IMG/VR virus record: IMGVR_UViG_3300046499_000487
Location: 1-37,175 of that record
Length of the DNA stretch: 37,175 nucleotides
Reading direction: 5' to 3' (one strand)
Source: a virus
Part shown: piece by piece, positions 8,852-37,104 of the stretch
How the letters are laid out: every line of letters starts with the position of its first letter
Numbering within the stretch: position 1 is the first letter of the stretch
Position numbers and translations under genes: made by a program
Notes under the pieces: generated by a model
What the model saw: only the letters and a program-made list of their open reading frames with translations
Database searches by the model: none
What the model was told of the DNA's origin: nothing

Positions 8852-8855
8852 CACC

Positions 8856-10606: not shown

Positions 10607-10756
10607 GAAGGCCGCGCAACAGCGCGATACGAGACGACACGAGACGGCACGACGCGGCCACGATGAACGGACGCTAAACGCCTCTGACCAGCATGGGGCG
10701 GCGTGGTGCGACTCTCGGCAACTCGACGCGATACAGGGCGGTATGAGCGAGCCGCA

Positions 10757-17807: not shown

Positions 17808-20800
17808 TCACCCCCCGAGATTGAGTCGAACGGTCGCGCCCTGCGCGCGGCCGAACTGCAGGAGCACGCGCTGGATTTCGCGGCCGACGGCGACCGGGTC
17901 CATGGCCTGCTCGATGCGGACGTTGACGACCATGCCGCCAGCGCTGGCGCCCGGCACTGCGGCCCTGCCCGCTGGGATGGCGGCCCGTCCCGTCATCCGC
18001 CCGGCGACGACGTTCATCGCCCGGTCGATGTGAGGAATCCCCGAGATCAGGCCGACGGCGATACCGCGGGCCGTGTTGATGCCGTCGGGCTTCATCTTCG
18101 TGGCGGGCGACTTGATGCCGAGAGCTTCGCGCAGGGCGTGCTGCATGCTCTTGGCGATTTTGATCATGGTCTTCTTGAGGTCTGCCTCCTGGGAGAGGAG
18201 TCCCTTGAGGAAGCCCTTCGCGGAGTTCTTTCCGGAGTCGTACATCCGGTCGGCGCCGACCTGCCCGAGCGACGCCGTGCTCTTGTTGATCTGCGTTTCC
18301 AGCGAGTTGATCGAGGAGAACGTCGCCTTGTCCGCGCCGACCAGAGCGCTCGCGTAGGCGTAGCCCTGCTCCGGGCCCATGTTGAGGATCTGGTGCAAGA
18401 GGCTCTTGTTGAGGCCTCGCTTCGCGAGGATCCCGATGTACCGGGTGAGCTGCTGGATCTGGGCGAGCTTGCCCGCCAGCCCGCCCTTGATGCCACCGGC
18501 TGTGACCGAGTCGGCGTCCATGCCGAGGTTGGACAGGCCGGCGCTCTCGCGCGCTGCGTTGGTGACGCTGGACGCGAACTTCTTGGTCTCGGCGATTTTG
18601 GCCGCGATGGCGTCACGCTTCTTCGCCGTGTCCAGCAGCTTCGCTGTCTGCTTGTCGATCATCTTCAGGAGGCCGGACTCCTTCTTGCCGGAGAAAGCCG
18701 TCCTGACGTCGGTCGCGAGGTCCTTCGCCACCGACTTGATCTTGTCGCGGGAGCCGGTCAGACCGGTGATGAATCCCTTGGCCGTATCCTTGGCGAGGGC
18801 CTTCGTCTTCTTTGACGGAGAGGCGATCTCCAGTTCGCCCTTGATGCCGGTCGAGACGGCGGCCGCCATGGCGCGCGCGGCCGCGTCGACCCTGGACGTG
18901 GAGCCGGCCATGCCGGACATGAGGCCCTGCGCCACGGCAGCACCGGCGCCGGGCATGCCAGTCCCGCCGCCGAGGCGGTCGGCGTTGATGGCCTCGACCA
19001 GGCTGCGGTACTTCGCAGTCGAGCGAGCGTTGATCATGTACTCGCCGTTGGACGCCATGATCGGGATGCTGTCCGAGGTCCCGGTTCCCGGCCCTCTGAT
19101 CGGACCGCCGCCGGGGAATCCGATCGGACCACCGGTGGCGTAGTTGCCGCCCTCGTGGAAGACGGTGCCCGCGTTCGACGTCTTCGTCTGCATGACGATG
19201 TAGGTGACGGCAGTCTTCCCGTCGATCTCATTCAGACGCCGCTGGGCGCGCGAGACCTCGTAGAGCAGGTTGGAGATGTCGCCCTTGACGGCCGCCTTCT
19301 TCGACGCCGGCACCGAGGCGAGCTTCTTCTTCGCCGCGGTGACCTTCGCCTCAAGGTCCTGGACGTCGCCCTTGAGCCGTGCAGTCTTGTCCGGCGTCCG
19401 CAGGATCTGGTCGGCGAGTGCCTTGGCCTCGGTCCTGGTCAGGCCCATCGCCCTGGCCGACTCGATCAACTTCTCGCGGCCGCGGGCGTAGATCCGGTTG
19501 GCGGCCTCCCATGAGCCGCCGGACTGCCGGGCCTGTGCCGCGGCTTCGTCGGTTTTCGCGGCCAGGTCGTTCAGTGCGGTCGCAGCCGCCTGCGCCTTCG
19601 GACTGTTGAGGTCCAGCTCCCCATTGACCATGTGGAGAGCGCCGTGGTTTTCCTTGGCCGCCTTCGCCGCGGCGTCGATGGACGCCTCGAATCCGATCAT
19701 CCCGCCGATGCCGGCGCGTTGCGCGTCGTTGAGCGCCTGGATCGACTGCCGCAGACCGTCAGCAGACTGCTTCTGCGCGGCGAGTGCAGCCTGCGCCGAT
19801 TGCGCCTGCTTGCCGAAAAGTCCCTGTGCCTCGGCCGCCAGGTCCTGCTCGAACTTGGCGTCGGCCAATGCCGACTTGTACGAGCTGAGGCGGCGCGTGA
19901 AGTCCGTGACGTCGTGGCCGCCCTTGCCGTACTCGGCCGACATGCGCTTCAGCGCCACCGCCGCAAGGTCCGCCTTGCCGCCACGCACCAGGGTGGTCAG
20001 ACCCTTATCGATCGCGTCGAGCCGCTCCTTCGCCTCGTTGTGAGGCGTGGAGTCCGCGATGCCCAGCGAGAACACCTTGACCAGGCCCTGCTGGACCTTG
20101 TCCGTGGTGCTCGCGTCGGTGATGTTCCGGATGCCGTCGTACAGGCCATCGAGGTCCTTGCCGAAGAGCCTCGCCGCCTCGCCGGTCGCCTTGCCCGAGA
20201 GGGCCAGCTTGCCCAGTGACGTCGTCAGCTTGTCGACGTCCGGGGGCGCCTTCTTACCGATCTTCGCTAGGTTGACCATGGCGACCGCGAACAGGCCGAT
20301 GCCGACCGCGGCAACGTTCATCTTGGCGCCGGTCGACAGCGTCCCGAACGCGCGCCGCAGCGAACCCATGGTCGTGGCGGATCCCAGCGCCGCCGTGCCC
20401 ATGGTGCGCAGGGATGCGGACACCGCGGTGAAGCCGCCCGCCAGGAGCTGGAACCCGGAGCCTGCCAGCTTCACTGCCCGGATCGCGATGGCCGTCTGCA
20501 TGAGCACGGTGACGAATCCCGGCGGCAGTGAGGCGACCAGCGAGGCCGCGGCGTTCGCGAGCTGGAGCACGCCCACACCGACACCGGATGCCGCCTGCAG
20601 CAGGTTGAGCGCGGCGGAGGCGACGTTCTTCAGCGTGTCTGCCAGGAGCGGGCCCTGGGCGCGGGCGTAGTCCATGAACTGCGTGAGCGCCCCGCCGGCC
20701 TTGCCCGTGTCGAGGGTGCGCATCAGGTGCACGAGTCCGTCGTTCGCGCGGCGCAGCGAACCAGTGGCGAACTCGGAGAACTTGTCCGAGAGCCGGTCGA

Positions 20801-21359
20801 AACCGGGGCTGGCCATGCTGCCGGCCGCGACGGTCATGAAGCGGTCCAGCTCGGTGGACGCGCCCTTCACCAGGGGGGTCAGCTTGGGCAGCATCGCCGA
20901 GGCGACAGCGATCCCCTTGGTGAAGACGGGCATGGTGTCCTTGGCCAGCCCGTCCGACCAGGCCGCGTACTGCTTCTTCAGGGTCGTCAGGGCCGCCGCC
21001 GCCTGGCGGGTGGCGGACGGCATCTTCTCGATCTGCTGCTGGAACTCTGCCTGCGCCGTGAGCGCCGCCTCGGACGTGGCACCTGACTTGGCGACGGCGT
21101 CCTCGTACTTCTTCTGCGCTTCGCTCGCATCCGACAGCGCGCCGATCTGCGGGATGACGGCCGCACCGAACGCGGCCACGGCAACGGCTGCCGCGCCGGC
21201 CTGCGCGGCCAGGGGCGCCAGCGCGGCGGCCGCCGGGATCGCACCGCTGGCGAGCAGCAGCTTCTTCTGCAGGTCGGCGGCCGAGTCGCCTGCCTTGTCC
21301 AGAACCTTGGACAGCCGGTCGCGGCCCTCCAGCGTGAACGTGAGTCGCGTGCTGGCCAT
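17808..21359 (-). CDS. Tape measure protein
   Basis: An 1183-residue protein, the longest in the window. The Ala/Leu-rich hydrophobic N-terminal region (35-75) and another at about 210-370 are typical of tape measures. Long helical stretches rich in Ala, Lys and Asp follow (about 430-740), then Gly/Ser-rich parts. GFITGLTGSRDKIK and further repeats of an AKGF-x-x-GL type occur toward the C-terminus. It sets tail length and is injected with DNA. ATG 21359 overlaps the tail chaperone frameshift product's stop by one base, the classical arrangement. Confidence 0.92.
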   Translation of the reverse strand: MASTRLTFTLEGRDRLSKVLDKAGDSAADLQKKLLLASGAIPAAAALAPLAAQAGAAAVAVAAFGAAVIPQIGALSDASEAQKKYEDAVAKSGATSEAALTAQAEFQQQIEKMPSATRQAAAALTTLKKQYAAWSDGLAKDTMPVFTKGIAVASAMLPKLTPLVKGASTELDRFMTVAAGSMASPGFDRLSDKFSEFATGSLRRANDGLVHLMRTLDTGKAGGALTQFMDYARAQGPLLADTLKNVASAALNLLQAASGVGVGVLQLANAAASLVASLPPGFVTVLMQTAIAIRAVKLAGSGFQLLAGGFTAVSASLRTMGTAALGSATTMGSLRRAFGTLSTGAKMNVAAVGIGLFAVAMVNLAKIGKKAPPDVDKLTTSLGKLALSGKATGEAARLFGKDLDGLYDGIRNITDASTTDKVQQGLVKVFSLGIADSTPHNEAKERLDAIDKGLTTLVRGGKADLAAVALKRMSAEYGKGGHDVTDFTRRLSSYKSALADAKFEQDLAAEAQGLFGKQAQSAQAALAAQKQSADGLRQSIQALNDAQRAGIGGMIGFEASIDAAAKAAKENHGALHMVNGELDLNSPKAQAAATALNDLAAKTDEAAAQARQSGGSWEAANRIYARGREKLIESARAMGLTRTEAKALADQILRTPDKTARLKGDVQDLEAKVTAAKKKLASVPASKKAAVKGDISNLLYEVSRAQRRLNEIDGKTAVTYIVMQTKTSNAGTVFHEGGNYATGGPIGFPGGGPIRGPGTGTSDSIPIMASNGEYMINARSTAKYRSLVEAINADRLGGGTGMPGAGAAVAQGLMSGMAGSTSRVDAAARAMAAAVSTGIKGELEIASPSKKTKALAKDTAKGFITGLTGSRDKIKSVAKDLATDVRTAFSGKKESGLLKMIDKQTAKLLDTAKKRDAIAAKIAETKKFASSVTNAARESAGLSNLGMDADSVTAGGIKGGLAGKLAQIQQLTRYIGILAKRGLNKSLLHQILNMGPEQGYAYASALVGADKATFSSINSLETQINKSTASLGQVGADRMYDSGKNSAKGFLKGLLSQEADLKKTMIKIAKSMQHALREALGIKSPATKMKPDGINTARGIAVGLISGIPHIDRAMNVVAGRMTGRAAIPAGRAAVPGASAGGMVVNVRIEQAMDPVAVGREIQRVLLQFGRAQGATVRLNLGG

Positions 21360-21972
21360 CACTCACCCCCTGCTGTTTGGGCCTGCGCGGCCACGTGTCG
21401 GTCGACCCAGATGACGGCTTGGAGGAAGCGGGCGCGCGGCAGCGCTTCGAGCTCGGCGGGGCCGATGTGCAGGAGGTGGGCGATCAGGGGCCAGTACTCG
21501 TCGAGGAGGTCTCCGATGCGACGTCCGGCGAGGGAACCGGGGCCGGCGGCGGAGTGGCGGTGGCCGGGCCTTTTGGGGCCAGCTCCGCGAACGCCTTTTC
21601 GACGTCGGCCTCGTCGTGCGCCATGGTCCGCATGAAGCCGGTCATCCGCTCCACGACTTCGTCGGTGGCTTCCGGGTTCTTCACCAGAGCCTCGGCCATG
21701 TCGAGGATCTCCGGGTACTCCAGCCGGGCCTTGGTGCGCCGCTTCCAGCCGGGAAGGTCGAAGTCGGTGAACCGCAGCGTGGGCTGCTGCCGCTTACGGA
21801 ACACCCACAGGACGGCGCGCATCGCGGTCGGCTGCTGCTGGCGCAGGGCGCTGTCGACGTCGTCCCAGTCCAGGCCGGTGGCGGACTCGATCACGGACGA
21901 CTCGATCGCGGACAGGTCGTCGGTCGAGACCTCTTCGACGCTGCCGTCGTCGAGACGGTAGGAAACGATCAC
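21359..21972 (-). CDS. Tail assembly chaperone, -1 frameshift fusion (GT-like)
   Basis: The predicted 204-residue fusion reads the upstream chaperone frame for 134 residues and slips -1 at CCCAAAA (21577-21571). It continues for 70 residues, including GRRIGDLLDEYWPLIAHLL, IGPAELEALPRARFLQAV and IWVDRHVAAQ. The downstream frame has no start of its own, codes a convincing globular sequence and ends one base into the tape measure ATG. Such fusions are needed in small amounts to wrap the tape measure during tail assembly. Confidence 0.85.
21484..21972 (-). CDS. Tail assembly chaperone, unshifted product (G-like)
   Basis: A 162-residue acidic protein starting at GTG 21972 after AGGAG at 6 bases. 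It has a helical middle part (LEYPEILDMAEALVKNPEAT and EVVERMTGFMRTMAHDEADV) and a Pro/Thr/Ser-rich tail beyond the slip site that looks like filler. Position between tail tube and tape measure matches lambda G and its relatives. Confidence 0.85.
   Translation of the reverse strand: MIVSYRLDDGSVEEVSTDDLSAIESSVIESATGLDWDDVDSALRQQQPTAMRAVLWVFRKRQQPTLRFTDFDLPGWKRRTKARLEYPEILDMAEALVKNPEATDEVVERMTGFMRTMAHDEADVEKAFAELAPKGPATATPPPAPVPSPDVASETSSTSTGP
21571..21577 (-). promoter_or_regulatory. Programmed -1 ribosomal frameshift site
   Basis: In the minus-strand frame the codons read GCC CCA AAA GGC, so C CCA AAA fits the X XXY YYZ slippery rule. A GC-rich region follows that could form structure. Slipping joins the two chaperone frames exactly. 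Confidence 0.85.
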
Positions 21973-22501: not shown

Positions 22502-23488
22502 TCACAGCGTGACGTCCGTGGACATGTACTCGATCTTCACCGGGTTCGTTCCGTCGTACAGGGCGGTGAAGTTGAAGGTGGGCCGGATGACATCGAAACC
22601 GTCGACGACCGGCGGGCCCTCGTCGAAGCGCACCGCGGGCAGGGTGATGCGGAACGTCTCGGCGTAGGTCGACGCGATGATCGGGCCGACGAACTCCCAG
22701 ACGAGGGACGTCGCGCCGTCGCTGGTGTGCAGGTCGTCGAGGATCGTGTCGATGTAGTCCGTCTCCAGCGAACCAGTGATCTTCACCTGGTCGTTGGAGA
22801 TGGGCTCCTTCTTCAGCCCGGCCTGGCCCGCGTAGAAACGCTCCGTCGCCTGCGGCCGCTCGATCTTCACGGACACCTTGCGGACGCCGTCGCGTGCCGT
22901 CTCCGAGGAATAGGTACCGGTCTTGACGGCCATCTGGCTGAAGTGGAACGGGCTCATGTTCGGGTAGGCGGCCGTCGCCAGCGTCTGTGCCTCGTCGCAC
23001 GTCTTGCCGTCGAACTCGAACGACCCGGTGAGCATGCCGCCCACCTCGCACGCGAACTCCGCGCTGGTGACCTTACAGCCGAGGAACGTCTTGTCGGTGA
23101 CGGTCCCGGTAGTGAGGGGCACCCCTTTCTGGATCGTCAGGCTCTTGCCTGCCGTGTCCGCGAGGGTATGCGTCTGCAGGTAGGCAGCGGTCGCCACCTG
23201 CTGCACGGGCGTGACCGTCGTCCCCATGAGCGCCTGCAGCAGGACACCCATGGACTTGTTGACGATCTCCAGGTCGATGGAGCCCTGCACCTCCTGGCGC
23301 GTCAGCACGCGCCGGGAGCTCAGCGCGAGCAGACGGCCGGCCGCGATGCCCGCGGACTGCGCCGTGGTCTTCTTGAGCGCCAGCGATTCCTTCGTGAACT
23401 CGATGAACTTGGCCGGCGCGACGAACGTGCCGTAGCTGCTCTCGGCGCTGATACCGAGCTGGGCACCGAGGCCCGAACCGATCGCCAT
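22502..23488 (-). CDS. Major tail tube protein
   Basis: A 328-residue protein. The start GSGLGAQLGISAESSYGTFV with PAKFIEFTKESL is typical of tail tube proteins from actinomycete siphophages. The rest is beta-rich, with alternating polar strands and no cysteine-rich or membrane parts. Several hundred copies should build the tube. ATG 23488 overlaps the previous stop by one base (TGATG). Its position before the chaperone pair and tape measure supports the call. Confidence 0.85.
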   Translation of the reverse strand: MAIGSGLGAQLGISAESSYGTFVAPAKFIEFTKESLALKKTTAQSAGIAAGRLLALSSRRVLTRQEVQGSIDLEIVNKSMGVLLQALMGTTVTPVQQVATAAYLQTHTLADTAGKSLTIQKGVPLTTGTVTDKTFLGCKVTSAEFACEVGGMLTGSFEFDGKTCDEAQTLATAAYPNMSPFHFSQMAVKTGTYSSETARDGVRKVSVKIERPQATERFYAGQAGLKKEPISNDQVKITGSLETDYIDTILDDLHTSDGATSLVWEFVGPIIASTYAETFRITLPAVRFDEGPPVVDGFDVIRPTFNFTALYDGTNPVKIEYMSTDVTL

Positions 23489-25060: not shown

Positions 25061-26479
25061 TCAGAACGTCGGGGTGATCAGGCCGGTGCCGGAGATGACC
25101 GCGATGGCCTTCGGGTAGCGCGAGGCGTGCAGGGCCGCGTAGTTGTAGAACCGCAGCAGCACGCTGAGCTGGTCCGCCTTCGTCTCGCGGAACGCCTCGG
25201 CCTGCGGGGTGCCCTCGAAGAAGATGACGTCCGTCGACCGCAGGATGATGATGCGGTCCTCGTTGGTACCCGCTCCCAAGTTCACCGGGATGTTCGGGTC
25301 GACGTACACGGGCAGGCCCTGCAGCGTGCCGACGAACCCCTCGGAGGCGACGGCACCCATGGCGGCGAGGACGTTCTGCGGCATGTTCGTCGACGGAACG
25401 ACCAGCGGCCGGCCGGCGGTGTCGACCGCGGCGGTGAACCAGGCCCACCGGCGGGGCGCCATGAAGATCTTGTCCCCGGGCAGGAAGCGGCCGGTGTGGA
25501 TCTGCTGGATCGCGTCGGCGACCTTCGGGTACAGCTCGGCGGTGGTCGGCGTCGCGTCGGTGTAGGTCACCGCGTTGAGGCCGGACACGTTGAGCAGGCC
25601 GACCTTGTTGGCCGCGTTGTTGTTGATGACGAAGGTGTCGGCCTTCACCGCGTAGTCCGCGGCCAGGTCCGCCAGCAGGATCTGGTCCATGTTGATCGGC
25701 GACTGGTCCAGGAGCTGCTGGGCGACGACCTGCTGCCCGGCGATCGTGGTCACGTTGGCGGTCACCGAGTTGGTGGTCGCGTCGGTGTTCTGCACCGCCG
25801 TGTTCTGCGTGGTCTGCTCCGCCACCGCGGTGCCGGTCGCCACCCGCGGCAGGCTGATCGCGTCGGTGCCCGTGGGCAGTCCCATCGGGCGGACCTGGTC
25901 GGCGACCACACGGCCGCCGCGAGCCAGCGCGATGTAATCGTTGATCATCCACAGCGGCGGGACGAACTCGCCGCCGGCGCCGTCCGTCGTGGTCAGGGCG
26001 CGGGCCTCCATGCCCTCCAAGGCCTGCTCGGCGCCGCGGGCGATCCGCTCCACGTGGTCCTGGACCTCGCGGTCGTTGCGGGACAGCCGCTCGATGGACG
26101 ACGTGTCGCCCTTCATCTGGGCGCGGAACAGGTCGCGGAAGTACGACGTCTGCCCGCCCTTGCGGTAGGTCTCCGGCTCCGAGACGACGGTCACCCGCTC
26201 GCGGCGCTCGCCGGTCTGGCGGTGCTCGGCGAGGATCTGGGCCGCGCGCTGCTCGCGCTGCTCGTCCTTCTCCAGGTCGGCGATCCTCTCGCGGAACGCC
26301 TCGATCTCGGTGTCCTTCGACTTGAGCGCCTCGCGCTTCTCGCCGAACGTCTTGGCCTCGTCGTCGGACAGGTCCCGGCTCTCGGCCTTCGGTGCCGCGA
26401 GGATGCCGTCCATCTCGGACTTCAGCGCGGCCCGGGCTTCGAGCGCGGCTGTCATCTGCTTGCGCAGGTAGGCGAGCAT
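25061..26479 (-). CDS. Major capsid protein, HK97 fold
   Basis: A 472-residue protein. Residues 1-100 are a charged coiled coil (KSKDTEIEAFRERIADLEKD), the scaffold-like delta domain. The coat domain starts near 110. Recognisable capsid segments are GGEFVPPLWMINDYIALARG, a Thr/Gln/Ala-rich stretch, LLADLAADYAVKADTFVINN and a C-terminal axial part with VDPNIPVNLGAG. The delta domain should be removed by the prohead protease encoded just upstream. ATG 26479 follows GGGAG. The 145 bp gap before it has no convincing gene. Confidence 0.92.
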   Translation of the reverse strand: MLAYLRKQMTAALEARAALKSEMDGILAAPKAESRDLSDDEAKTFGEKREALKSKDTEIEAFRERIADLEKDEQREQRAAQILAEHRQTGERRERVTVVSEPETYRKGGQTSYFRDLFRAQMKGDTSSIERLSRNDREVQDHVERIARGAEQALEGMEARALTTTDGAGGEFVPPLWMINDYIALARGGRVVADQVRPMGLPTGTDAISLPRVATGTAVAEQTTQNTAVQNTDATTNSVTANVTTIAGQQVVAQQLLDQSPINMDQILLADLAADYAVKADTFVINNNAANKVGLLNVSGLNAVTYTDATPTTAELYPKVADAIQQIHTGRFLPGDKIFMAPRRWAWFTAAVDTAGRPLVVPSTNMPQNVLAAMGAVASEGFVGTLQGLPVYVDPNIPVNLGAGTNEDRIIILRSTDVIFFEGTPQAEAFRETKADQLSVLLRFYNYAALHASRYPKAIAVISGTGLITPTF

Positions 26480-26624: not shown

Positions 26625-27296
26625 TCAGGCCAGCAGGTCGGCCTCAGCCAGGTACAGGGACAGCGGGTGCCGGGCCGCCGCGGGGGCGGGCTCCAGGCGC
26701 CGCTGCAGACGCTCGTACAGCGCCCGGGCGTCCGCCTCGTCGAGGCGGTCGAAGTCGGCGGAGCGCATCGCCCCGACGGTGGTGGCGGGGTTCGCTCCGA
26801 AATTGACGACGCTGACATCTCCGCGATGCAGGTCGACTTCGAGGATGTCGCGCTGGTCGTAGTCCGGCGACCACTGCTGGCGCGTCACCCTGAAGGCGAA
26901 GCTCATCTCGTCGACACTGCCCTCTTCGAGGGCGGCCAGCATGTCGCCGACGTCGGAGCGCTTCGTCGAGACGTCCGCCTCCATGTGCAGGCCCGTGGTG
27001 TCCTCCGACAGGCGCAGGCTGCCGGCCTTCGTGTACGCCATCGCCAGGCCGCCGTGGTTGAGCAGCAACTGCACCTGCGGGTTCTCCGCCAGAGTTTTGG
27101 CGAACGCGCCCGTGCGGACGACCTCGCTGTACGGGCCCAGCCAGTCCCACATCTCGAACGGGGCTTCGGTGACCGAGGCGTAGCCCTCGACCGTCGAGAT
27201 GCCGGACGCGCCCTTCTTGGCGCGGATTTCGAGCTGCACGGGGAACGCGCGCCGCTCGGTACCGGACGGCTTCGCCCGGTCGCTCTTGACGCTCAC
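26625..27296 (-). CDS. Prohead protease, HK97 type
   Basis: A 223-residue serine protease of the HK97 prohead family (U35). H81 in QLLLNHGG and S132 in VDEMSFAF are the expected catalytic residues. EGYASV and WDWLGPYSEVVRTGAFAKTL are conserved early segments. It cleaves the capsid delta domain during head maturation. GTG 27296 follows GGGAGGA. It lies between portal and capsid genes as in HK97. Confidence 0.9.
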   Translation of the reverse strand: MSVKSDRAKPSGTERRAFPVQLEIRAKKGASGISTVEGYASVTEAPFEMWDWLGPYSEVVRTGAFAKTLAENPQVQLLLNHGGLAMAYTKAGSLRLSEDTTGLHMEADVSTKRSDVGDMLAALEEGSVDEMSFAFRVTRQQWSPDYDQRDILEVDLHRGDVSVVNFGANPATTVGAMRSADFDRLDEADARALYERLQRRLEPAPAAARHPLSLYLAEADLLA

Positions 27297-27309: not shown

Positions 27310-28476
27310 TCACTGTCCGTTCTCTTCTGGCTTCGCGGTGGTCAGCGGGAGCACGACGTCGCCGCCGGGCAGGGGGGCCTGGTCCTCGTTGTCTCGCACC
27401 TCGTTGGGTACGGCGAACTGGTTGCGCAGGGCGATGGCGTGCGCGCGGTAGCGGGTCAGCAGGTCGGTACGGGCCAGCGCGGCACGGTTGATCTTCACGT
27501 ACTGGCCGCGCGGCAGCATCGACGTCCACATCCGCTCGGTGCGCACCAGCCACCGGTCTAGCGCGTAGGTCAGCAGGTCGAGGCTGCGCTGCTCGACGTT
27601 GGCGTAGGTCATGGATCCGCCGGTCTCATAGCCGAGGATCTCCGGCATGCCCGGCCCGTAGATCCGCGCGCACTCGGCCGCCGTGTACTTCTGCGTCTCC
27701 AGGAACTGGGACTCCTCCGGGGCCACGGAGACGGCCTGGAACTTCCAGCCCTGCCCCAGCACGAGCGGCTCCCGGGAGCCGCGCAGCGCGGCCATGAACC
27801 GCTGCTTCGCCACGGCCGCCTGCTTCGGGTCCAGGGGCTGCTCGTTGGTCAGCAGCCCCGACGGGGTGCCGCCCTCCTCGAAGAACTGCTGGCCGAACTT
27901 CGCGGCCGCCAGGCCCTGCCCGATCGTCGACGCGTGGTGTGCCACCGGCGACAGCCCCAGCAGTCGGCCGGGAATCGTGTACGCCCGCTGGTGCCACATG
28001 TCCGCGGCGGCGTCGGCGTCGAGCGTCTCGCCACAGACCCGCCACCGGGCCACCCCGCTGGCCGGGTCCCGCCAGCCCTGCACTTCGTCGGGGTGGTAGA
28101 GGACGACCTGCGTAGGGTTCGCCATCCGGTCGCGGTCGGCGACCTTGCCGTAGGTGTTGCCGCGCAGCAGCACCGACATCATGTACTGGTACGTCCAGTC
28201 GCCCAGCCCGTAGCCGTCGCCCGCCGGGTCCTCCAGCAGCGGAGGCTTAGGCAGCTCCTTGCGGGCCGCTCCCGTGCCCTCGTACACGTCGACCGGCAGC
28301 GTGGACACGAGGGACGCGACCAGGTCCGTGGCCGCCCACACAGCGACCTTCTGCAGGCTCGCCTCGGCGTGCGACAGGTTGATGCTCGCGAACGTCGAGC
28401 CCAGCATGGACGGCCGGGGAATCGGTGGCTCGGCGAACGGCGACCGCCGCTCGCGTCGGCTGAAGAACAGACTCAC
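27310..28476 (-). CDS. Portal protein, HK97 type
   Basis: A 388-residue portal protein forming the DNA entry ring. Typical segments are LQKVAVWAATDLVASLVSTL, LPVDVYEG, YMMSVLLRGNTYGKV, VLYHPDEVQGW, AAKFGQQFFEEGGTPSGLL, IYGPGMPEILGYE and NVEQRSLDLLTYALDRWL. GTG 28476 overlaps the preceding stop as GTGA and follows GGAGG; a longer reading frame upstream lacks such support. The C-terminus includes NEVRDNEDQAPLPGGD, common to this family. Confidence 0.93.
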   Translation of the reverse strand: MSLFFSRRERRSPFAEPPIPRPSMLGSTFASINLSHAEASLQKVAVWAATDLVASLVSTLPVDVYEGTGAARKELPKPPLLEDPAGDGYGLGDWTYQYMMSVLLRGNTYGKVADRDRMANPTQVVLYHPDEVQGWRDPASGVARWRVCGETLDADAAADMWHQRAYTIPGRLLGLSPVAHHASTIGQGLAAAKFGQQFFEEGGTPSGLLTNEQPLDPKQAAVAKQRFMAALRGSREPLVLGQGWKFQAVSVAPEESQFLETQKYTAAECARIYGPGMPEILGYETGGSMTYANVEQRSLDLLTYALDRWLVRTERMWTSMLPRGQYVKINRAALARTDLLTRYRAHAIALRNQFAVPNEVRDNEDQAPLPGGDVVLPLTTAKPEENGQ

Positions 28477-28649
28477 CTCGACCTCCAGTCCGCGATCAGG
28501 CAGAACACGCCAGCGACCGCCAGCCCCGCAGGTACGTAGATGAGCCATGCCGCCGCCGACAGCAGCAGCGCACCAGCCGCGCCGGGCAGATGCCGCAGCG
28601 ACCAGCCGGCCGCCGTCGCCAAGGCGCCCACGACCTTCGCCCTGGTCAT
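28473..28649 (-). CDS. Small membrane protein between terminase and portal
   Basis: A 58-residue protein with a basic start, two hydrophobic segments (about 20-34 and 37-51) and a short charged end DWRSR. ATG 28649 follows GAGAGGGG and the stop overlaps the portal start. Role unknown. Confidence 0.65.
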   Translation of the reverse strand: MTRAKVVGALATAAGWSLRHLPGAAGALLLSAAAWLIYVPAGLAVAGVFCLIADWRSR

Positions 28650-28660
28650 ACGGGCCCCTC

Positions 28661-30199
28661 TCACAGGATGTTGTCCATCGGGTCGACTGCGTCCTCGACG
28701 TCTGCGCCGAGGCCCCACTTGGCGAAGGTCGCGGCCACCAGCGGGCTGATATCGACGCCCACGCCGCGGCGGGCCCACGCCCACGCGTCGCCGAGCGGCC
28801 GCTTCTGCGCGCCCGCCAGTGCGGTCGCCAGCGGCGCCTGGTCGAGGTGGCTGAGTGTCTGTTCGGTGACTGCGTCGTAGAACTGGCCGCACGAGTTGGC
28901 TACGTCGCGGGCCTTCGGCTTGACCACCTCGACGCCGAGTCCGTTCTCCTCGTCCTCAAGGTCGGGGATCAACGACCCGGCCGGCCCGCCCGGGTCGACC
29001 ACCCAGCACCGCGGCTTCCACTTCCGGTGCAGCTCCTTGGCCCGCTCCAGGATCCAGCCGGTGCCCGGCCGGTGGTCGACCACCTCGACGTGCGCGCCGC
29101 CCCGCCAGCGGCCCGCCACGGCGATCGCCGCGTGCGAGCGCTCCGGGGTCATGTCGATCGCGAAGACCACCTGACCCTCAGCGGTGGACTCGGCGGCCGC
29201 CAGCGCCCGCCACACGTCCTCGCCGATGACCTGCCACGTGTCGGCCGTATCCGACGGATACACGCCCACACCCAGCCGCTCACGGGAGAACAGCGTGTCG
29301 CCCAGCGTGAGCCGTTCGTTCGCCGACTTCTCCAGCGTCAGCCGGTAGCCCACCGCCGGATTCGACTTCAGGATCGACTCCGGGTCCGCGACGTCGTCGT
29401 GCTCCGTGCAGGCTTGCCCGCACTCGTCGCGGTGCTCGTTGATGGACCACTCGAAGTAGGCGAGGGTGGGATCCGGTACACCCGTCTCGGCGGCCGCCAG
29501 GGCGCGGCGCCTTACCCGCCCTAGCTGTACGGACTGGTGGCCGATGCCAGCGCTCCCCAGATACCAGGTCTGCGGGTTGGCAACCGCGGCGAGGGTCGGC
29601 GCGAGCGCCGCCATGGCGTCATCGCCCAGGATCATGTCTTCGTCGAGGATCACGCAGTCCGCAGTGAAGCCACGGCCGGACCCGCCGGAGCGCGCGATGA
29701 ACCGCAGCTCCTGCCCGGAGTGCAGCTCGATCGCCTCGTCACCCACCGTCTTCCGGTAGATCTTCACGCGTTTGTGCAGGTCAGGGCATGCGCGGATCAG
29801 GTTTTCGATCCGCTTGTACGCGTTCTTCGCCGTCTTGAACTCATGGGCGCTGTGCAGGATCAGCCGCTCGCCGCCGATGAACAGGCCCCACAACTCGCGG
29901 GCCTCGATGATCCCGCCCTTACCGTTCTGCCGCGGGACGTTGACGCACACCTCGGGCGCCGCCCAGTTGCCGTCGGCGCGCTCGCCCATTCCCTGGTCGA
30001 GGACGTGCTGCTGCCACGGGTCGAGCTTCAGACCGGCCCGGGCCGCCAAGTCGACGGCTTCCTGCCCTGCGCTCGACAGCGCGGTGCCCGGCACGGTGAA
30101 GACGCGGGGGCGCTGGTGGCCATACGCGGGGCCGTCAGCCACCGACTGCCTGCTCTGCTGCCGCTGCTCGGCGCTTCTTTCGCTGCTCAGCAATGTCAT
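28661..30199 (-). CDS. terL: Terminase large subunit
   Basis: A 512-residue packaging motor and nuclease. The ATPase has a Walker A-like PRQNGKG (89-95), as in HK97-type terminases, and Walker B VILDED (183-188). The nuclease domain begins near FAIDM with D349, and VVDPGGPAGSL follows. It drives DNA into proheads through the portal encoded downstream. ATG 30199 overlaps the small-subunit gene by 65 bases; an in-frame GTG at 30142 would overlap by only 8 and is an alternative start. Confidence 0.93.
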   Translation of the reverse strand: MTLLSSERSAEQRQQSRQSVADGPAYGHQRPRVFTVPGTALSSAGQEAVDLAARAGLKLDPWQQHVLDQGMGERADGNWAAPEVCVNVPRQNGKGGIIEARELWGLFIGGERLILHSAHEFKTAKNAYKRIENLIRACPDLHKRVKIYRKTVGDEAIELHSGQELRFIARSGGSGRGFTADCVILDEDMILGDDAMAALAPTLAAVANPQTWYLGSAGIGHQSVQLGRVRRRALAAAETGVPDPTLAYFEWSINEHRDECGQACTEHDDVADPESILKSNPAVGYRLTLEKSANERLTLGDTLFSRERLGVGVYPSDTADTWQVIGEDVWRALAAAESTAEGQVVFAIDMTPERSHAAIAVAGRWRGGAHVEVVDHRPGTGWILERAKELHRKWKPRCWVVDPGGPAGSLIPDLEDEENGLGVEVVKPKARDVANSCGQFYDAVTEQTLSHLDQAPLATALAGAQKRPLGDAWAWARRGVGVDISPLVAATFAKWGLGADVEDAVDPMDNIL

Positions 30200-30420: not shown

Positions 30421-30600
30421 GCTAATTCACTCGAACCGAGTTCGCGGAAATAGCGCGGTCACAGAGGGTGATGTCACGGAGGGTGAAGCCACTAATGTGA
30501 CCCAACTCAGTTCGCGTGAATAGGCTTTCAAAATCGCCGCGCAAAAAATCGGGCGAGAAGGGCGTTTGGGTCGCCCGGGAAGGCCACCAAAAAGGGGCCG
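30421..30600. other. Repeat-dense, AT-richer segment before terS (candidate cos/pac)
   Basis: A non-coding stretch clearly richer in A/T than its surroundings. It contains an inverted pair of 20-mers, ATTCACTCGAACCGAGTTCG (30425-30444) and, on the opposite strand, ATTCACGCGAACTGAGTTGG (30521-30502). It also holds a tandem pair CACAGAGGGTGA/CACGGAGGGTGA and a 7 bp stem CGGGCGA/TCGCCCG (30550-30577). An open frame crosses it but its codons lack the GC-rich third positions seen elsewhere. Position directly upstream of the terminase genes suggests the packaging site. Confidence 0.45.
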
Positions 30601-32377: not shown

Positions 32378-32578
32378 TCAAGCGGTGACGCGCTGTTGCC
32401 TCTTGAGGGCCAGCGCGGTGACGTCCGGGACCGCGAAGTACGGGTAGCGCTCGGTACCGCCGGAGCGCTTGAGCTGGCCACGGTAGACGAGGTTCCGGAG
32501 GGCCCCAGCGCTGACGCCGAGAGCCTGGCGGGTTTGCTCGGCGGTCAGGTGGCCGGGGCGGATGATCTGTGGCTCCAT
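32378..32578 (-). CDS. Excisionase-like helix-turn-helix protein
   Basis: A 66-residue protein that is a complete HTH_17/MerR-like winged helix: LTAEQTRQALGVSAGALRNL, VYRGQLKRSGGTERYPYFAV and PDVTALALKRQQ. Proteins of this size serve as excisionases or regulators in AICEs. It lies 186 bp after the FtsK-like gene, next to an extended inverted repeat that could be its operator. The start at ATG 32578 has GGAGG immediately adjacent, which is unusually close. Confidence 0.75.
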   Translation of the reverse strand: MEPQIIRPGHLTAEQTRQALGVSAGALRNLVYRGQLKRSGGTERYPYFAVPDVTALALKRQQRVTA

Positions 32579-32664
32579 GCCTCCATGATGCGCCTGCGGT
32601 GTCGCTCCCGGGCGCGGTCTCGGGGGCCGGTTGCGGGGGTGTTAGAGGCCGCTCGCGGCAGGGC

Positions 32665-32754
32665 CGAAACTCGAAACCTCGCAGCCCAGGACCGATATCG
32701 GGGGCGAAACCGGTTTCGGATCAAGGCGAAACCGCGTCCTTGATCCGAAACCGG
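32665..32754. repeat. CGAAACC repeats with 17 bp inverted repeat
   Basis: CCGGTTTCGGATCAAGG (32710-32726) and CCTTGATCCGAAACCGG (32738-32754) form a perfect 17 bp inverted repeat with an 11-base spacer. A 14 bp palindrome CGAAACCGGTTTCG lies at 32705-32718. CGAAAC(C) appears at 32665, 32672, 32705, 32727 and 32746, and inverted at 32712. It lies directly after the FtsK-like gene and may be a terminator, an operator or a transfer locus. Confidence 0.75.
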
Positions 32755-32764
32755 CTGGAGGGCC

Positions 32765-34861
32765 CTACTCGGCGTCCTCGGCGGCGGGCAGATCCTCGTA
32801 GCGGAGGCCCTTGGCGCCGCCGCAGCAGTCGCGGATCGTGAGCTGCCGTGTGGAGACCTTGTGGGGCTTCAGCGCGGCCGACAGGGCCGTGGATGCCCCG
32901 GCGGCGTCGAGCTCGGTCCACGGGCGGTACAAGTCGGCCCGGTACGCGGCGAGGGCCTCGACGAGCCGGTGGGAGTGGACCGTCTCGACTCCGTCCGGCC
33001 AGATGGCACGCAGGTGGTCGAGGACCGTCTCGACGTCGTGTTCCTCGATCTGAGCGCCGACGGCCTGCCCGGTGAGGGTGCCGGCGGCCGTGCGCAGCGC
33101 GAGGGCGCGAGCGGCGATGTCCTCGGCCTCGGTCTGCTTGATGAATGCGGCACGGACGGTGATGCCCTCGCGGCCGCGGGCGAGGATGCCGGTTCCCTGC
33201 TCGTCGACGGAGATGTCGGTGGCGCGGAGGCCGCGGTCGTAGGCACCGGTGCCTAGGACGTTGTTGTTGGCCCGCCAGTCCATGACGGCGAGGCACAGGC
33301 GGGTGCCGACGCTGCTGGAGACGGAGCTGGGCAGGCTGGGGGCGTCCGGGTTCTGGGTGAGCAGGATGAGGATGAGGCCGTAGGCGCGGCCCTTCTTGAT
33401 CAGGCGGGTGGCGAGGGCGGCGGCCTCCTCCTTGTAGTCGGGGTGGGTAAAGAGCTCCTGCACCTCGTCGATGACGATGACGCGGGGGCCGAGCTGCTGC
33501 TCGGGGTACTTCTCGGCGAGCGCCCGGGTGACCTTGCGTCCCTCGGGGACCTCGGAGGCGGGCAGGGAACGGACGAACGCGGCGCGGCGCTGGTACTCGG
33601 CGATGCCGGAGCGCATGCCGCCGAGGGCGGCCTCCAGGTCGGGCTCGTCGTCGCCGGTGACGTAGCGATGGCAGATGGGCTTGACGGAGTCGAGGTCGCC
33701 GGAGCCCTTGAGCTCGTAGATCCAGAGCTCGGCGGTGGGGTCGAGGGCGACGCCGAGGACGATGGCGAGCGCGCACGACGTCTTGCCGCTGCCCGGGATG
33801 CCTCCGACCAGCAGGTTCGAGTACATGAGGGTGATCTCGACGAGGTTGCCGCGCGGGTCGAAGCCGTAGGGCAGGGGCTGGTAGACGTCGGCCTGGCCCT
33901 CGCGCATGAGCGGCCAGAGCTTCCGGCCGGCCTTGGCGGGGTCTCGCTGGGCGACCCACAGGACCAGGCGGCCCGGGTGAGCGGTGCGGTCGGCCTCGGG
34001 CCACACGGTGCTGATGGGGCGGCGCATGGCGGCGGCAAGCGCGGCCCGCTTCTCCAGGACGGCGGTGGCTTCGATGCCCGGGGGCAGGTCAACCTCGGCG
34101 CGCCAGCCGGGCCCGTCGCGCATGACCTCGGCGGCGAACTCCACACCCTTGCGACCCTTCTTGCCCTCGATGCCGATGGCGGCGAGCGCGTCGAACACCT
34201 CGGTGGAGTCGAGGCGGCGGAGCACGTTGGTGGCGACGTACCGGGTGATGAGCGCCTTGTCGCCTTTCTTGCCGTTCAGGCCAGCCAGGGCGGCGACGCC
34301 GACGTACGCGGCGAGCGTCCAGCCGGGCACGAGGAACGCGCTGACGAGCGTGGTGATGCCGGTGGCGGTGGCGACGGCGAGGGAGGCGACGCGGCGGGGC
34401 CGGACGCGGCGGGAGTGCTCGCGGCACAGGTCCAACCACGCTTCGATGTCGGCGGTCGTCGCGGCCTTGGCCCGGACCGGGCGAGCCTCGGTGTCGGCGA
34501 CCCACTTACCCCAGCGCACGATGAGCCGGCCGGTGCCGCGCGGGCCGCGCAGGAGCAGCCGTCCGAAGTAGACGGGGACGCGGAGCGCGTGGAAGGCGGA
34601 GACATGTCCGTAGTAGGACGCTGTCCATCGGACGGCGTCCTTGAAGGCGTCCCAGCGGCGCAGCGCGGGAGGGACGATGGGTGGGGCGTCGGCGAGGTAG
34701 GCCCGCCGTTCCGCGATCCATGTGCCGTCGGGGGCGGCCTCGGGGCGGTCGACGGGACGCGGCTCGGCGTTCTGGATGATGTCGAGGACGGTCTGCCGGG
34801 CGGCGGCGTCCTCGGTGTCCTGGGGGGCGTCCTGTAGCGGCTTGATCAGGCTGTCGGTCAT
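32765..34861 (-). CDS. FtsK/SpoIIIE-type DNA translocase (TraB-like)
   Basis: A 698-residue membrane-anchored motor. Residues 1-155 are a cytoplasmic N-terminal part, followed by a hydrophobic hairpin (about 157-177 and 181-196). The motor has Walker A GGIPGSGKT (353-361), Walker B VIVIDE (461-466) and GRAYGLILILLTQNP before the arginine-finger region. The C-terminal 60 residues (STRQLTIRDCCGGAKGLRYE) look like a DNA-reading winged helix. In Streptomyces plasmids and AICEs one such protein moves double-stranded DNA between cells. In this phage it may do that, or separate or pump phage DNA. ATG 34861 follows CGGAG. Confidence 0.88.
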   Translation of the reverse strand: MTDSLIKPLQDAPQDTEDAAARQTVLDIIQNAEPRPVDRPEAAPDGTWIAERRAYLADAPPIVPPALRRWDAFKDAVRWTASYYGHVSAFHALRVPVYFGRLLLRGPRGTGRLIVRWGKWVADTEARPVRAKAATTADIEAWLDLCREHSRRVRPRRVASLAVATATGITTLVSAFLVPGWTLAAYVGVAALAGLNGKKGDKALITRYVATNVLRRLDSTEVFDALAAIGIEGKKGRKGVEFAAEVMRDGPGWRAEVDLPPGIEATAVLEKRAALAAAMRRPISTVWPEADRTAHPGRLVLWVAQRDPAKAGRKLWPLMREGQADVYQPLPYGFDPRGNLVEITLMYSNLLVGGIPGSGKTSCALAIVLGVALDPTAELWIYELKGSGDLDSVKPICHRYVTGDDEPDLEAALGGMRSGIAEYQRRAAFVRSLPASEVPEGRKVTRALAEKYPEQQLGPRVIVIDEVQELFTHPDYKEEAAALATRLIKKGRAYGLILILLTQNPDAPSLPSSVSSSVGTRLCLAVMDWRANNNVLGTGAYDRGLRATDISVDEQGTGILARGREGITVRAAFIKQTEAEDIAARALALRTAAGTLTGQAVGAQIEEHDVETVLDHLRAIWPDGVETVHSHRLVEALAAYRADLYRPWTELDAAGASTALSAALKPHKVSTRQLTIRDCCGGAKGLRYEDLPAAEDAE

Positions 34862-34897
34862 GCTGGTGACTCCGGTTGCTCGATGGGTGGTCGGACG

Positions 34898-34940
34898 CCC
34901 GGGGACGGCGGCTGCTTGGCGGTAGGACGCCGTCCCCGGG
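34898..34940 (-). terminator. Strong hairpin before FtsK-like gene
   Basis: CCCGGGGACGGCG and CGCCGTCCCCGGG form a perfect 13 bp stem with a 17-base loop, between the coiled-coil gene stop and the FtsK-like start. It may limit FtsK-like expression as a terminator or attenuator. Confidence 0.6.
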
Positions 34941-34946
34941 GCGCTG

Positions 34947-35282
34947 CTATCGGTAGCGGCGGAGCTCGCTCTCGATGCGGCGGGCGGTCTGCTCGTGGTC
35001 GTGCATCTTGCGGCGGGCGTCCGCGCGTTCCTTGCCGCTGCTGGTGCGCATGGTGACCCGGGCGCTGGCGGCGTCCCGGCGGGCCTGGCTGAGACGGCGC
35101 TCCAGCTCGGCGACCTCGGTCCGACCGCGCTCCTCGGCCCGCTCGGTGATCCGCTCGGCCTCGCGCTTGAGCCGGTCGTCGATGGTGTCGGCGTGGCGGT
35201 CCCCGGCGAGGGACTGCTTAGCGGCCTTGAGGGTGAGCCAGGCGAGGCGGCGCTTCTCGCGGCCGGTGTACGAGGCAGGCAT
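34947..35282 (-). CDS. Coiled-coil protein of the FtsK module
   Basis: A 111-residue, highly charged helical protein (for example DRLKREAERITERAEERGR and VAELERRLSQARRDAASAR), predicted to be a coiled coil over most of its length. ATG 35282 follows GGGGAAG, two bases after the previous stop. It has no known family. Its place directly before the translocase gene suggests a partner or adaptor in the same process. Confidence 0.7.
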   Translation of the reverse strand: MPASYTGREKRRLAWLTLKAAKQSLAGDRHADTIDDRLKREAERITERAEERGRTEVAELERRLSQARRDAASARVTMRTSSGKERADARRKMHDHEQTARRIESELRRYR

Positions 35283-35284
35283 GG

Positions 35285-35602
35285 TTACTTCCCCTTCTTG
35301 ATGTCGCCCCAGATGGAGCGGAGGACGAGTGCGAGGATGGCGACGGAGATGCCGCAGATGGCGATGGCGATGGAGGCGAACGCGATGCCCACGCCACCGA
35401 CGCAGACGGCGGCGCCGATGCCCAGCCACTCGCTGGCGCTGCGGCCTTGACTGTGCGTCTGCTGGCACGCGGGGAGCTGGGCGGCCGGCTGCTGCTGGGC
35501 GAGGCGGGCCAGCTCGACCGCGGCGAGCGCGACCTGTACGGCGGCGCTGTTGACGGCAGCGTCGGACGCGGCCTTCTCGGCCTTGGCGAGGGCGTCGCTC
35601 AC
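35285..35602 (-). CDS. Small membrane protein, Spd-like candidate
   Basis: A 105-residue protein. The N-terminal half is an Ala-rich helix (ALAKAEKAASDAAVNSAAVQ) and the C-terminal part holds two hydrophobic helices (about 61-76 and 79-96) with a basic end. GTG 35602 overlaps the preceding stop as GTGA and follows GGAGG. Small membrane proteins beside TraB in Streptomyces plasmids are the Spd spread proteins. Similarity here is by type and position only. Confidence 0.68.
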   Translation of the reverse strand: MSDALAKAEKAASDAAVNSAAVQVALAAVELARLAQQQPAAQLPACQQTHSQGRSASEWLGIGAAVCVGGVGIAFASIAIAICGISVAILALVLRSIWGDIKKGK

Positions 35603-35775
35603 TTCCACCACCTCCGGATGCGGCGGGCGAGGCGCGGCCACGTGTAGAGGCCGACGGCGAACGCAATGACGGGGGGCTGTGTGGCGATGGCGGTCCCGAC
35701 CGTTACGGCCAGGCCGAACAGGGGCGGGACGGCGACGAGCAGGGCGAGCAGGAGGCCGAACAGGGTGCGCATCAT
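35599..35775 (-). CDS. Small two-helix membrane protein
   Basis: A 58-residue protein with two hydrophobic helices (LFGLLLALLVAVPPLFGLAV and PPVIAFAVGLYTW) and a basic tail RLARRIRRWWK. Tandem ATGs at 35775 and 35772 overlap the upstream stop. It is another Spd-like candidate in the chain of overlapping genes leading to the translocase. Confidence 0.68.
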   Translation of the reverse strand: MMRTLFGLLLALLVAVPPLFGLAVTVGTAIATQPPVIAFAVGLYTWPRLARRIRRWWK

Positions 35776-36548
35776 GCTGTGACCGCCTGTCGCTCGGGGA
35801 GCTGGTCGGGGTGGAAGAGGTTGCGTCCCGAGGGCGTCTTGCTGTGGACGGTGAGGCGTCCGAGCGCGACCCAGGAGCGGACCGTGGACTGCTCGATGAG
35901 GTAGTGCTGGGCGACCTGAGCGGACGTCATGAGGGGCGGCTCGGGCGGCGGTCCGTCCTCGGTGTCCTCGGCGTCCTGGCCCGTCCCGGGCGGGAGCTGG
36001 GGCGTCTTGTCGACGTCCTGCCGGTCGTCCCGCTCCAGGGTCACGGTGGGCCCGGGAACGGAGACGAGGGGTAGCAGTCGGACGCCGGGCGGGACGACCA
36101 CCCGAACGGGCGGGACACTCAGGACGGCCGGGGGCGGCGGGGCGTCCTGGGCGAGACGCGCGTGGAGCTGGCGCATGAGCGCGCCGAAGGCCACGAGGGC
36201 GGCGGACGGCGGGACGGCCGCGACGACGTACTCCATGGGGTCGGCGCCGTACCCGACGCCGGCCACGTTGAGGGCGATGGATCCGAGGGACCCGAACGCG
36301 GCGAGGGCGACGGCCCACCAGTCCATGCCGTGGCGGCCGAGGGAGGCGCGGAGCATGAGCAGCTCGCCCGCGACGATGAACAGGTCGACGGTGGCGGGCC
36401 ATGCCCAGGCACGGGCGTCGTCGAGGCCGTTGCCGTCGGCGATGTCGTGCAGGTGCTCGTACGACAGCCAGAACGCGGCGGCCGTGAGCAGCACGGTGAC
36501 GGTGGCGGCTCCGAAGGCGAGGCCATCACGGGCGGTGGGTCGATTCAC
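35772..36548 (-). CDS. DUF2637-type membrane protein with C-terminal HTH
   Basis: A 258-residue protein. Four hydrophobic helices (about 10-30, 50-69, 77-96 and 105-125) with WLSYEHLHDIA and AWAWPATVDLFIVAGEL are typical of the DUF2637 family, which is common beside FtsK-like genes in actinomycete elements. After a Pro-rich linker (135-206), residues 207-250 form a MerR/HTH_17-like domain (TSAQVAQHYLIEQSTVRSWV, GRNLFHPDQLPER). It would anchor DNA to the membrane, perhaps to deliver it to the translocase. GTG 36548 overlaps the upstream stop as GTGA. Confidence 0.85.
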   Translation of the reverse strand: MNRPTARDGLAFGAATVTVLLTAAAFWLSYEHLHDIADGNGLDDARAWAWPATVDLFIVAGELLMLRASLGRHGMDWWAVALAAFGSLGSIALNVAGVGYGADPMEYVVAAVPPSAALVAFGALMRQLHARLAQDAPPPPAVLSVPPVRVVVPPGVRLLPLVSVPGPTVTLERDDRQDVDKTPQLPPGTGQDAEDTEDGPPPEPPLMTSAQVAQHYLIEQSTVRSWVALGRLTVHSKTPSGRNLFHPDQLPERQAVTA

Positions 36549-36964
36549 AGGGACGCACCGCCGTACCGGGCTGGCTCGCAGATGACGCAGACGTGTTCGG
36601 CGCTGCCGTCGTGGCAGTTGTCGATGCACTGGCGGCACCAGGGCGTGTCTCCGTGCCGGGCATGGCCGTCGAAGCGACGGTCGGCCGGGTCGAACGGCTT
36701 GTGGCAGCGGGCGCACAGGTTCTTGGCGCGCTCGTCGGCGTCGGCCTGCTCGGCAGCGAGCTTGCTGCGAAGGAAGTCGGCGTTCCAGGAGAGGTCTGCG
36801 GGAGTCTCGTCGAGAGCGGCGCGGACGACGCACTGGGCGTACGCGGCGCGGGCGAGGATCCGCTGGTCGTAGTTGTGCGCGTGGTACGGCAGCGTGAGCG
36901 CTTCGGCTGCGGCTTCGAGGAGCTGGCGAAGGCCGTGGCTCTCCGCAGTGGGGTCGGTGGTCAC
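36545..36964 (-). CDS. Zinc-finger protein of the FtsK module
   Basis: A 139-residue protein: a helical first half (LRQLLEAAAEALTLPYHAHN, ILARAAYAQCVVRAALDET) and a C-terminal half with several metal-binding Cys/His groups (LCARCHKPFD, HARHGDTPWCRQC, NCHDGSAEHVCVIC), enough for two zinc sites. GTG 36964 overlaps the previous stop as GTGA; the open frame continues upstream but in Arg/His-rich shadow sequence. Probably DNA- or protein-binding; no known family. Confidence 0.72.
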   Translation of the reverse strand: MTTDPTAESHGLRQLLEAAAEALTLPYHAHNYDQRILARAAYAQCVVRAALDETPADLSWNADFLRSKLAAEQADADERAKNLCARCHKPFDPADRRFDGHARHGDTPWCRQCIDNCHDGSAEHVCVICEPARYGGASL

Positions 36965-37104
36965 CGGACCACCGCCTTGCGGATGCTGCTGCCGGTGACG
37001 CCGACCTCGGTGACGCGCACGGTGATGGTGCGGTCCGGGGTCCGGCGGATGATGCCCGCGGCGACGATGCGCCGACCGGGGGCGATAGGGTTCCGCTGGG
37101 TCAT
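36961..37104 (-). CDS. Very small basic protein
   Basis: A 47-residue basic protein (MTQRNPIAPGRRIVAAGIIR, then RTPDRTITVRVTEVGVTGSS) with beta-strand character and no cysteine. ATG 37104 has only a weak purine stretch upstream, and the stop is shared with the next gene's GTG. It is the first gene seen in the FtsK module. It may be a small DNA-binding protein; not recognised. Confidence 0.55.
   Translation of the reverse strand: MTQRNPIAPGRRIVAAGIIRRTPDRTITVRVTEVGVTGSSIRKAVVR

Follow-up and report, generated by a model that had tools for sequence, protein, structure and literature searches.

Why should a temperate tailed phage carry a DNA translocase of the kind found in actinomycete conjugative plasmids and AICEs (actinomycete ICEs), and what might the enzyme do there? 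The question is raised by a leftward gene unit at positions 32378–37104 of an IMG/VR record of 37,175 bp, which bears a tailed-phage gene set and lacks end repeats; the whole stretch is referred to here as the window. A preliminary description had read the unit as an AICE-like transfer module inside a siphophage. The reading favored here, to which we assign a probability of about 70%, is that a temperate siphophage here houses a full TraB-type transfer module, of the kind known from AICEs and Streptomyces plasmids, which moves double-stranded DNA between hyphae or compartments.

The phage genome and its integration site

The window meets the criteria for a tailed temperate siphophage (Caudoviricetes), namely an HK97-type major capsid protein, portal, large terminase subunit (TerL), tape measure, lysis and integrase genes. 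The full phage set claimed in the preliminary description was recovered, TerL, portal, protease, capsid, tape measure, minor tail protein and endolysin all being found:

3561–6557, minus strand, replication helicase, DUF927/Cch-like (PF06048, 3.7e-35; Cch1-like)
8799–10514, plus strand, tyrosine integrase (PF14659, PF00589; phrog_1, 3.9e-41)
10755–10800, plus strand, attP core, 3′ part of tRNA-Lys(TTT), ~45 bp (92–98% match to three S. scabiei att copies)
11793–12041, plus strand, GntR-family regulator (PF00392, 2.9e-13)
12997–13758, minus strand, endolysin
15341–17803, minus strand, tail protein
17808–21362, minus strand, tape measure
22502–23488, minus strand, minor tail protein
25061–26479, minus strand, major capsid protein (HK97-type)
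26625–27296, minus strand, protease (HK97-type)
27310–28548, minus strand, portal
28661–30199, minus strand, TerL (phrog_9, 1.4e-81)

The attP core sits just behind the integrase gene, interior to the record and not at its ends. Judged by sequence, it looks genuine, because att copies in S. scabiei, one of them in a tRNA-Lys gene, bound a related prophage. That genome holds three successive copies of the tRNA-Lys sequence, one within the intact tRNA-Lys gene. Copies ~42 kb apart flank the related prophage; its ftsK, located at 5.41 Mb, has 86% identity to that of the window. The third copy lies 29 kb beyond. Tandem tRNA-Lys att copies at S. scabiei 5383546–5454438 (L193–L195), bounding both the 42-kb module-bearing prophage and the further 29-kb stretch, suggest that elements are stacked at a single site.

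The record's ends join up, because the gene order in three relatives (L043, L011, L019) spans them: in these, rep-helicase-(MTase)-orf124 continues directly into the ftsK operon. On this comparison, the window may be taken as nearly a full genome, circular or permuted. Upstream of a terS-like gene, at 30422–30540, lie short repeats around ACTCGAACCGAGTTCGCG and ACTCAGTTCGCGTGAATAG that could mark a cos/pac site or a promoter.

Some of the accessory features proposed earlier had to be revised. The supposed Prim-Pol replication gene is the DUF927/Cch-type helicase, whose N-terminus resembles Prim-Pol by eye only; neither Pfam nor NCBIfam returned a match to Prim-Pol or DUF3631 in this protein. 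Iterons, also postulated, were not found near the replication or integration genes, and the real repeat element is a clt-like one at 32660–32764, absent from the preliminary description. The GntR regulator is real, but it adjoins the integrase gene instead of belonging to the transfer unit.

The translocase operon and the phages that share it

The unit under study comprises the following features, all on the minus strand:

32378–32578, minus strand, excisionase/MerR-like small HTH protein (HTH_17), downstream of the repeat element
32660–32764, minus strand, clt-like non-coding element of ~100 bp, directly 3′ of the translocase stop codon
32765–34861, minus strand, FtsK/TraB-type DNA translocase, 698 aa (PF01580 FtsK_SpoIIIE, 5.5e-6, above curated cut-off)
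34947–35282, minus strand, small, charged protein with a coiled coil, resembling DUF6257 (PF19771, 2.4e-5, narrowly under cut-off); its gene immediately precedes that of the translocase
35285–35605, minus strand, Spd-sized membrane protein, 106 aa, two hydrophobic stretches
35599–35775, minus strand, Spd-sized membrane protein, 58 aa, one hydrophobic stretch
35772–36548, minus strand, DUF2637 membrane protein (spread-type), four hydrophobic stretches, C-terminal HTH (PF10935, 2.1e-15)
36545–36961, minus strand, zinc-finger-like (CxxC) protein of the same operon, also present in an AICE (L064, below)
36961–37104, minus strand, 47-aa protein heading the operon as assembled

The translocase, DUF2637 protein, Spd-sized membrane proteins and coiled-coil protein named in the preliminary description were all recovered, the last with only a weak family match; its excisionase-like protein survives as a small HTH protein, HTH_17/MerR-like. 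Its notion of a single leftward unit is upheld as well. The same gene order, including the small membrane proteins, repeats across dozens of independent contigs, and because of this recurrence it cannot be put down to chance. In relatives, the operon runs on upstream of the 47-aa protein into orf124-MTase-helicase-rep, and a Streptomyces decoyicus plasmid likewise has a DUF6257 gene directly before ftsK.

The translocase matches the FtsK/SpoIIIE-like PHROG family phrog_1358 at 1.2e-27; NCBIfam gave no informative name for it. It has an N-terminal hydrophobic hairpin (~139–199), a Walker A motif GGIPGSGKTS (353–362) and a Walker B motif VIVIDE, followed by a C-terminal winged-helix-like domain (~610–690) whose helical/winged part is predicted at a pLDDT of ~80 and whose DNA binding is inferred. 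A profile search of solved structures returned FtsK and the clostridial conjugation protein TcpA; congruently, the AlphaFold model best matched the FtsK motor 6t8o (1.2e-11), with TcpA next. The model as a whole is only moderate, with a mean pLDDT of 61, and confidence in it is low except for the motor core and the C-terminus.

The conjugative plasmid pFP11 encodes a protein of the same DUF2637 family, and Pfam does not place pSVH1 SpdB2 in it. The Spd analogy therefore rests on position, size and hydrophobicity together with pFP11. The C-terminal DNA-binding domain of the DUF2637 protein is BldC/HTH_17-like; PHROGs labels the DUF2637 part an excisionase, probably a misnomer from such HTH ends.

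Translocase loci at 52–95% identity to the window number 45 in viral contigs and 22 in bacterial genomes, mainly Streptomyces with some Actinomadura. The small operon genes recur around the translocase in related loci, and iterated profiles place a terminase 2–5 kb downstream of it in about 40. In about 40 loci, translocases 77–95% identical to that of the window occur where the terminases are 28–91% identical, falling to 28–38%, and the translocase dN/dS of 0.15–0.38 indicates purifying selection. On these sequence grounds, the ftsK operon is taken to be the conserved core of a phage group, a selected module common to phages with different heads.

The operon also occurs outside recognizable phages. 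An element in S. albus NRRL F-4971 (L066:6890–20897) and its near copy L037 carry the operon (73% translocase identity) and a clt-like element, adjoined by an integrase and a weak terminase-small-subunit match (PF05119, just below cut-off). No TerL or capsid gene was found in either, and they are possibly satellites or decayed elements. In S. verrucosisporus, an ~11-kb AICE (L064) encodes a translocase 70% identical to that of the window, matching operon genes and the same repeat element, alongside an integrase and Prim-Pol plus DUF3631 replication genes; chromosomal genes flank it, and no phage genes were found in it.

The repeat element behind the translocase gene

The window element contains six GTTTCG/CGAAAC units (at 32665, 32672, 32705, 32713, 32727 and 32746), a 17-bp perfect inverted repeat (32710–32726/32738–32754) and a GATATC box. 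The element begins 10–20 bp past the translocase stop codon, and its conservation averages 0.79 over the first 115 bp, compared with 0.85 at the end of the coding sequence and 0.60 beyond the element. The GTTTC units are its most invariant columns. In a survey of the 64 relatives with a translocase identity of 51% or more and enough downstream sequence, 63 had at least three GTTTCG/CGAAAC units less than 200 bp after the stop codon, and the 64th (L053) had five units 545 bp on, behind inserted sequence. The element is thus kept in all 64, phage or AICE, regardless of the neighboring terminase, lysis or replication genes. When IMG/VR was scanned with a 26-bp core of the element, 38 stretches were obtained, all on contigs with this translocase, including three previously unmet contigs in which the translocase directly precedes the element. 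S. scabiei, with a genome of 10.1 Mb, has a single copy of this core, located at the prophage ftsK.

The repeats change with the translocase. Relatives at 36–44% identity have a similarly placed element with CTAGC/CTATCG-type repeats in 22 of 23 full-length cases; in Pseudonocardia broussonetiae the repeats after the translocase are GGTCAGG; and two closely related AICE-type translocases of S. scabiei (L087:8226–10328 and L088:8971–11085; 700 and 704 aa) are followed by an eightfold CAGGGA element. In pSVH1, the known motif CCCGGA occurs seven times at the same spot after the tra gene; the TraB of this plasmid binds 8-bp repeats, and the TraB-clt pair is proven. No repeats were found after the genes for chromosomal FtsK, EccC or the FtsK of phage Gilgamesh, nor after those of three small S. 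scabiei AICE translocases (L084–L086), which from their context we take to be of the pSAM2 type; none were obvious after the translocase gene of plasmid pPaSha2. A 6-mer repeat score alone was not significant in S. decoyicus, pSG5, pNBC01298, pPaSha2 or an Actinomadura locus (L067), so the case for a clt depends on how well the element is conserved among relatives and on those lineages in which the repeats are clear. Outside the element, the motif has an observed/expected ratio of 0.42 in phage loci versus 0.58 in AICE loci, a difference too weak to use.

The experimentally mapped clt of pWTY27 consists of the last 16 bp of traA and 159 bp downstream, and its 7-bp repeats are footprinted by TraA and required for transfer (PMC3583192). 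Because place, size, build and lineage-dependent repeats all agree with pWTY27 and pSVH1, the best reading of the element, by analogy and without binding data, is a clt, the cis site at which TraB would load. Such a locus directly after the gene fits the AICE reading and speaks against a role in packaging. In many lineages with differing repeats (AICEs, pSVH1, pSG5) there is, after the repeats, a further motif near (T)GACCTGC or TGATCAG, which may be a common part of clt loci.

Two quite different explanations bear on this element. In one, translocase and element would serve virion DNA packaging or DNA entry, the former as a packaging aid and the latter as a pac/cos site. Proximity lends this some appeal, since element and ftsK lie 2–5 kb from the terminase in most loci, but the same element follows ftsK where the terminase is of another kind (28–38% identity), where tail or lysis genes follow instead (L032, L054, L070) and in the terminase-free S. 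verrucosisporus AICE, and the window has a normal TerL; we give this idea hardly any credence. In the other, the element would be a replication origin or the transcription terminator of the operon, and the translocase a leftover of recombination with an AICE. The perfect inverted repeat, with arms that covary modestly, and the position after a long operon, which fits a terminator, are compatible with it. Against it, conservation is not confined to the stem, the conserved columns being the repeated GTTTC units together with the distal parts GATATC and GTTTCG-AGTTTCG; the motif varies with the translocase lineage; replication families differ under the same repeats (a DUF927 helicase in the window, Prim-Pol plus DUF3631 in the S. 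verrucosisporus AICE); and the purifying selection on the translocase does not suit a leftover. This explanation, too, is very improbable, if slightly less so than packaging. The element tracks neither terminase nor replication genes, which makes a packaging site or an origin unlikely. As a packaging site specifically, it was rejected for following ftsK beside unrelated terminases and in a phage-free AICE, and as an origin for occurring with unrelated rep families. The paired arms of the inverted repeat do covary slightly more than permuted arms, and part of the element could act as a hairpin or terminator too.

A probable transfer module shared with AICEs and plasmids

The preliminary description had named phylogeny as the arbiter: grouping of the translocase with chromosomal FtsK or phage packaging proteins would refute its reading. 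No such grouping was obtained. The phage-type translocases form a clade (100/98), within which the S. verrucosisporus AICE also lies, and a larger clade (99/98) adds an AICE-like Streptomyces plasmid, a Nonomuraea AICE and two Pseudonocardia phage-plasmids, uniting the window translocase with those of AICEs and conjugative plasmids. Chromosomal FtsK, EccC and the Gilgamesh FtsK fall away from it; these outgroups are long branches whose exact order is unsure, and none joins the window translocase.

A search of 296 Streptomyces species found translocase relatives in 82, mostly at 36–44% identity. Twenty loci in this range were fetched, and most are ordinary AICEs with integrase, Prim-Pol, RRQRL, DUF2637 and GntR genes, in which no terminase or portal was found. 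On a combined tree, the label phage or AICE changes five times as counted by a quick method, and at least four of the changes are forced by well-supported branches. The translocase would by this count have changed context between phage and AICE or plasmid about five times. A second, separate AICE-type lineage in phage-like surroundings is seen in two Streptomyces genomes (L184 in G041, L185 in G129; 37–38% identity), with CTAGC-type repeats and, in L184, a tape-measure gene and a tRNA-Lys att copy.

The AICE-like reading of the preliminary description is supported by the tree, by homologous operons in a phage-free AICE and by the clt-like locus, its contact-dependent transfer by lysogens remaining an inference. 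How the module might work is modeled on TraB, a membrane-anchored hexamer that assembles on its own clt and pumps double-stranded circular DNA into a recipient hypha, with small membrane proteins helping DNA across septa (PMC4170104). Observed in the present sequences are the gene set, the family relationship, the conserved operon, the element with its lineage-specific repeats, purifying selection and attP; binding to the element, the hexamer, transfer and its timing are inferred without transfer, binding or expression data. After excision, or on a circular or replicating phage genome, the C-terminal winged-helix domain would bind the GTTTCG repeats behind its own gene, and the translocase would form a membrane-located hexamer together with the DUF2637 protein and the small membrane proteins. 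This hexamer would then pump phage DNA, in double-stranded form, through the hyphal wall and the septal cross-walls into neighboring compartments or touching hyphae, where the DNA would integrate at tRNA-Lys. One infected or induced compartment might in this way seed a whole mycelium without lysis, the structural genes still permitting virion spread.

A narrower version would confine the translocase to the host mycelium, where it would move excised or replicating phage DNA through septa, or clear that DNA from closing septa in sporulation, with no intermycelial transfer. The same anatomy would serve, the phage host is multi-compartment, and spread (Spd) proteins are known to act in movement within the mycelium (PMC4170104). 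However, the AICE relatives, for which movement from one mycelium to another is expected, have retained an operon and element of this kind, and the relative that was checked is integrated, with tRNA-Lys att repeats, so that segregation of a plasmid-prophage would be needless. Such an exclusively internal role is unlikely, though it cannot be dismissed as readily as packaging. Transfer between hyphae or compartments remains the preferred reading. Its extension to a widespread group of tailed Streptomyces and Actinomadura phages, as dual-mode elements that spread both as virions and, by conjugation through the mycelium, with a self-addressed dsDNA transfer system swapped with AICEs, is put forward with less assurance, at only somewhat better than even odds.

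No paper describing a clt or a TraB module for these phages was found in the open-access literature, and prior reports are not excluded. Three things appear to be new: that a large phage group has as its conserved core a translocase of AICE type accompanied by a clt-like locus of its own, that this translocase has been exchanged repeatedly with AICEs, and that these AICEs bear a general clt signature. For pSAM2, no clt has been described (PMC9513070). If the proposal is true, phage and conjugative element are not separate lifestyles in filamentous actinomycetes, one module having crossed between them on several occasions, and the genome of a phage could colonize a mycelium without lysis. The repeat element would be a testable address predicting which DNA each translocase moves, including in many AICEs. 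TraB is thought to mobilize chromosomal DNA through clt-like sequences, and for this reason such prophages could also drive chromosomal gene exchange.

Several known systems resemble the window. Cluster J mycobacteriophages also encode an FtsK-type motor, which is closest to host FtsK, lacks the membrane domain and has an unclear role (PMC3706429). Phage Gilgamesh likewise has such a motor, with only 24% identity and no repeats after the gene. The 90-kb ParAB plasmid pZL12 of Streptomyces (phiZL12), reportedly described as a plasmid-phage by Zhong in 2010, encodes an FtsK/SpoIIIE-like protein. This protein belongs to a different lineage of marginal relation (2.6e-7 with filters off), and no repeat element was found behind its gene; marginal similarity and absent repeats rule it out as a close relative. 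pZL12 is a distant precedent for a phage with transfer, in that phage structural genes and a transfer function are combined in one element (PMC3583192, PMC4487206). Pseudonocardia alni pPaSha2 and P. broussonetiae plasmid 3, which the collection lists only as plasmids, have a DUF2637 gene beside a related translocase and a terminase gene, pPaSha2 with capsid and portal genes also; they are apparent phage-plasmids. Their translocases are ~35–39% identical to that of the window, and the repeats after the gene differ, being not visible in pPaSha2 and of another type in P. broussonetiae.

Also similar are the TraB-clt plasmids pSVH1, pWTY27 and pSG5, which have a membrane-anchored FtsK-type motor with a C-terminal winged-helix-like domain, a domain that in the window is predicted, and in which the tra gene ends in or is followed by a cis locus of short repeats (PMC3583192, PMC4170104). 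They differ in their repeats, pSVH1 TraB has only ~31% identity over the motor, and the window module resides on a phage. Similar, too, are AICEs of the Prim-Pol/DUF3631 class, with TraB/FtsK-type translocases in one clade with that of the window, DUF2637 and small membrane proteins, GntR, a tyrosine integrase acting into a tRNA gene and a repeat element after the translocase gene. An FtsK/SpoIIIE-type Tra protein is a defining criterion of AICEs (PMC3218068), and the window satisfies it, as it does that of an integrase with a tRNA att site. It fails on the type of Rep, its DUF927 helicase being unlike RepSA, RepAM (DUF3631) or the Prim-Pol type, and on the absence of virion genes; the S. verrucosisporus AICE does have the required Rep. 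Because TerL, portal, major capsid, tape-measure and endolysin genes are present, the window is not itself an AICE but a phage that carries a transfer module of AICE type.
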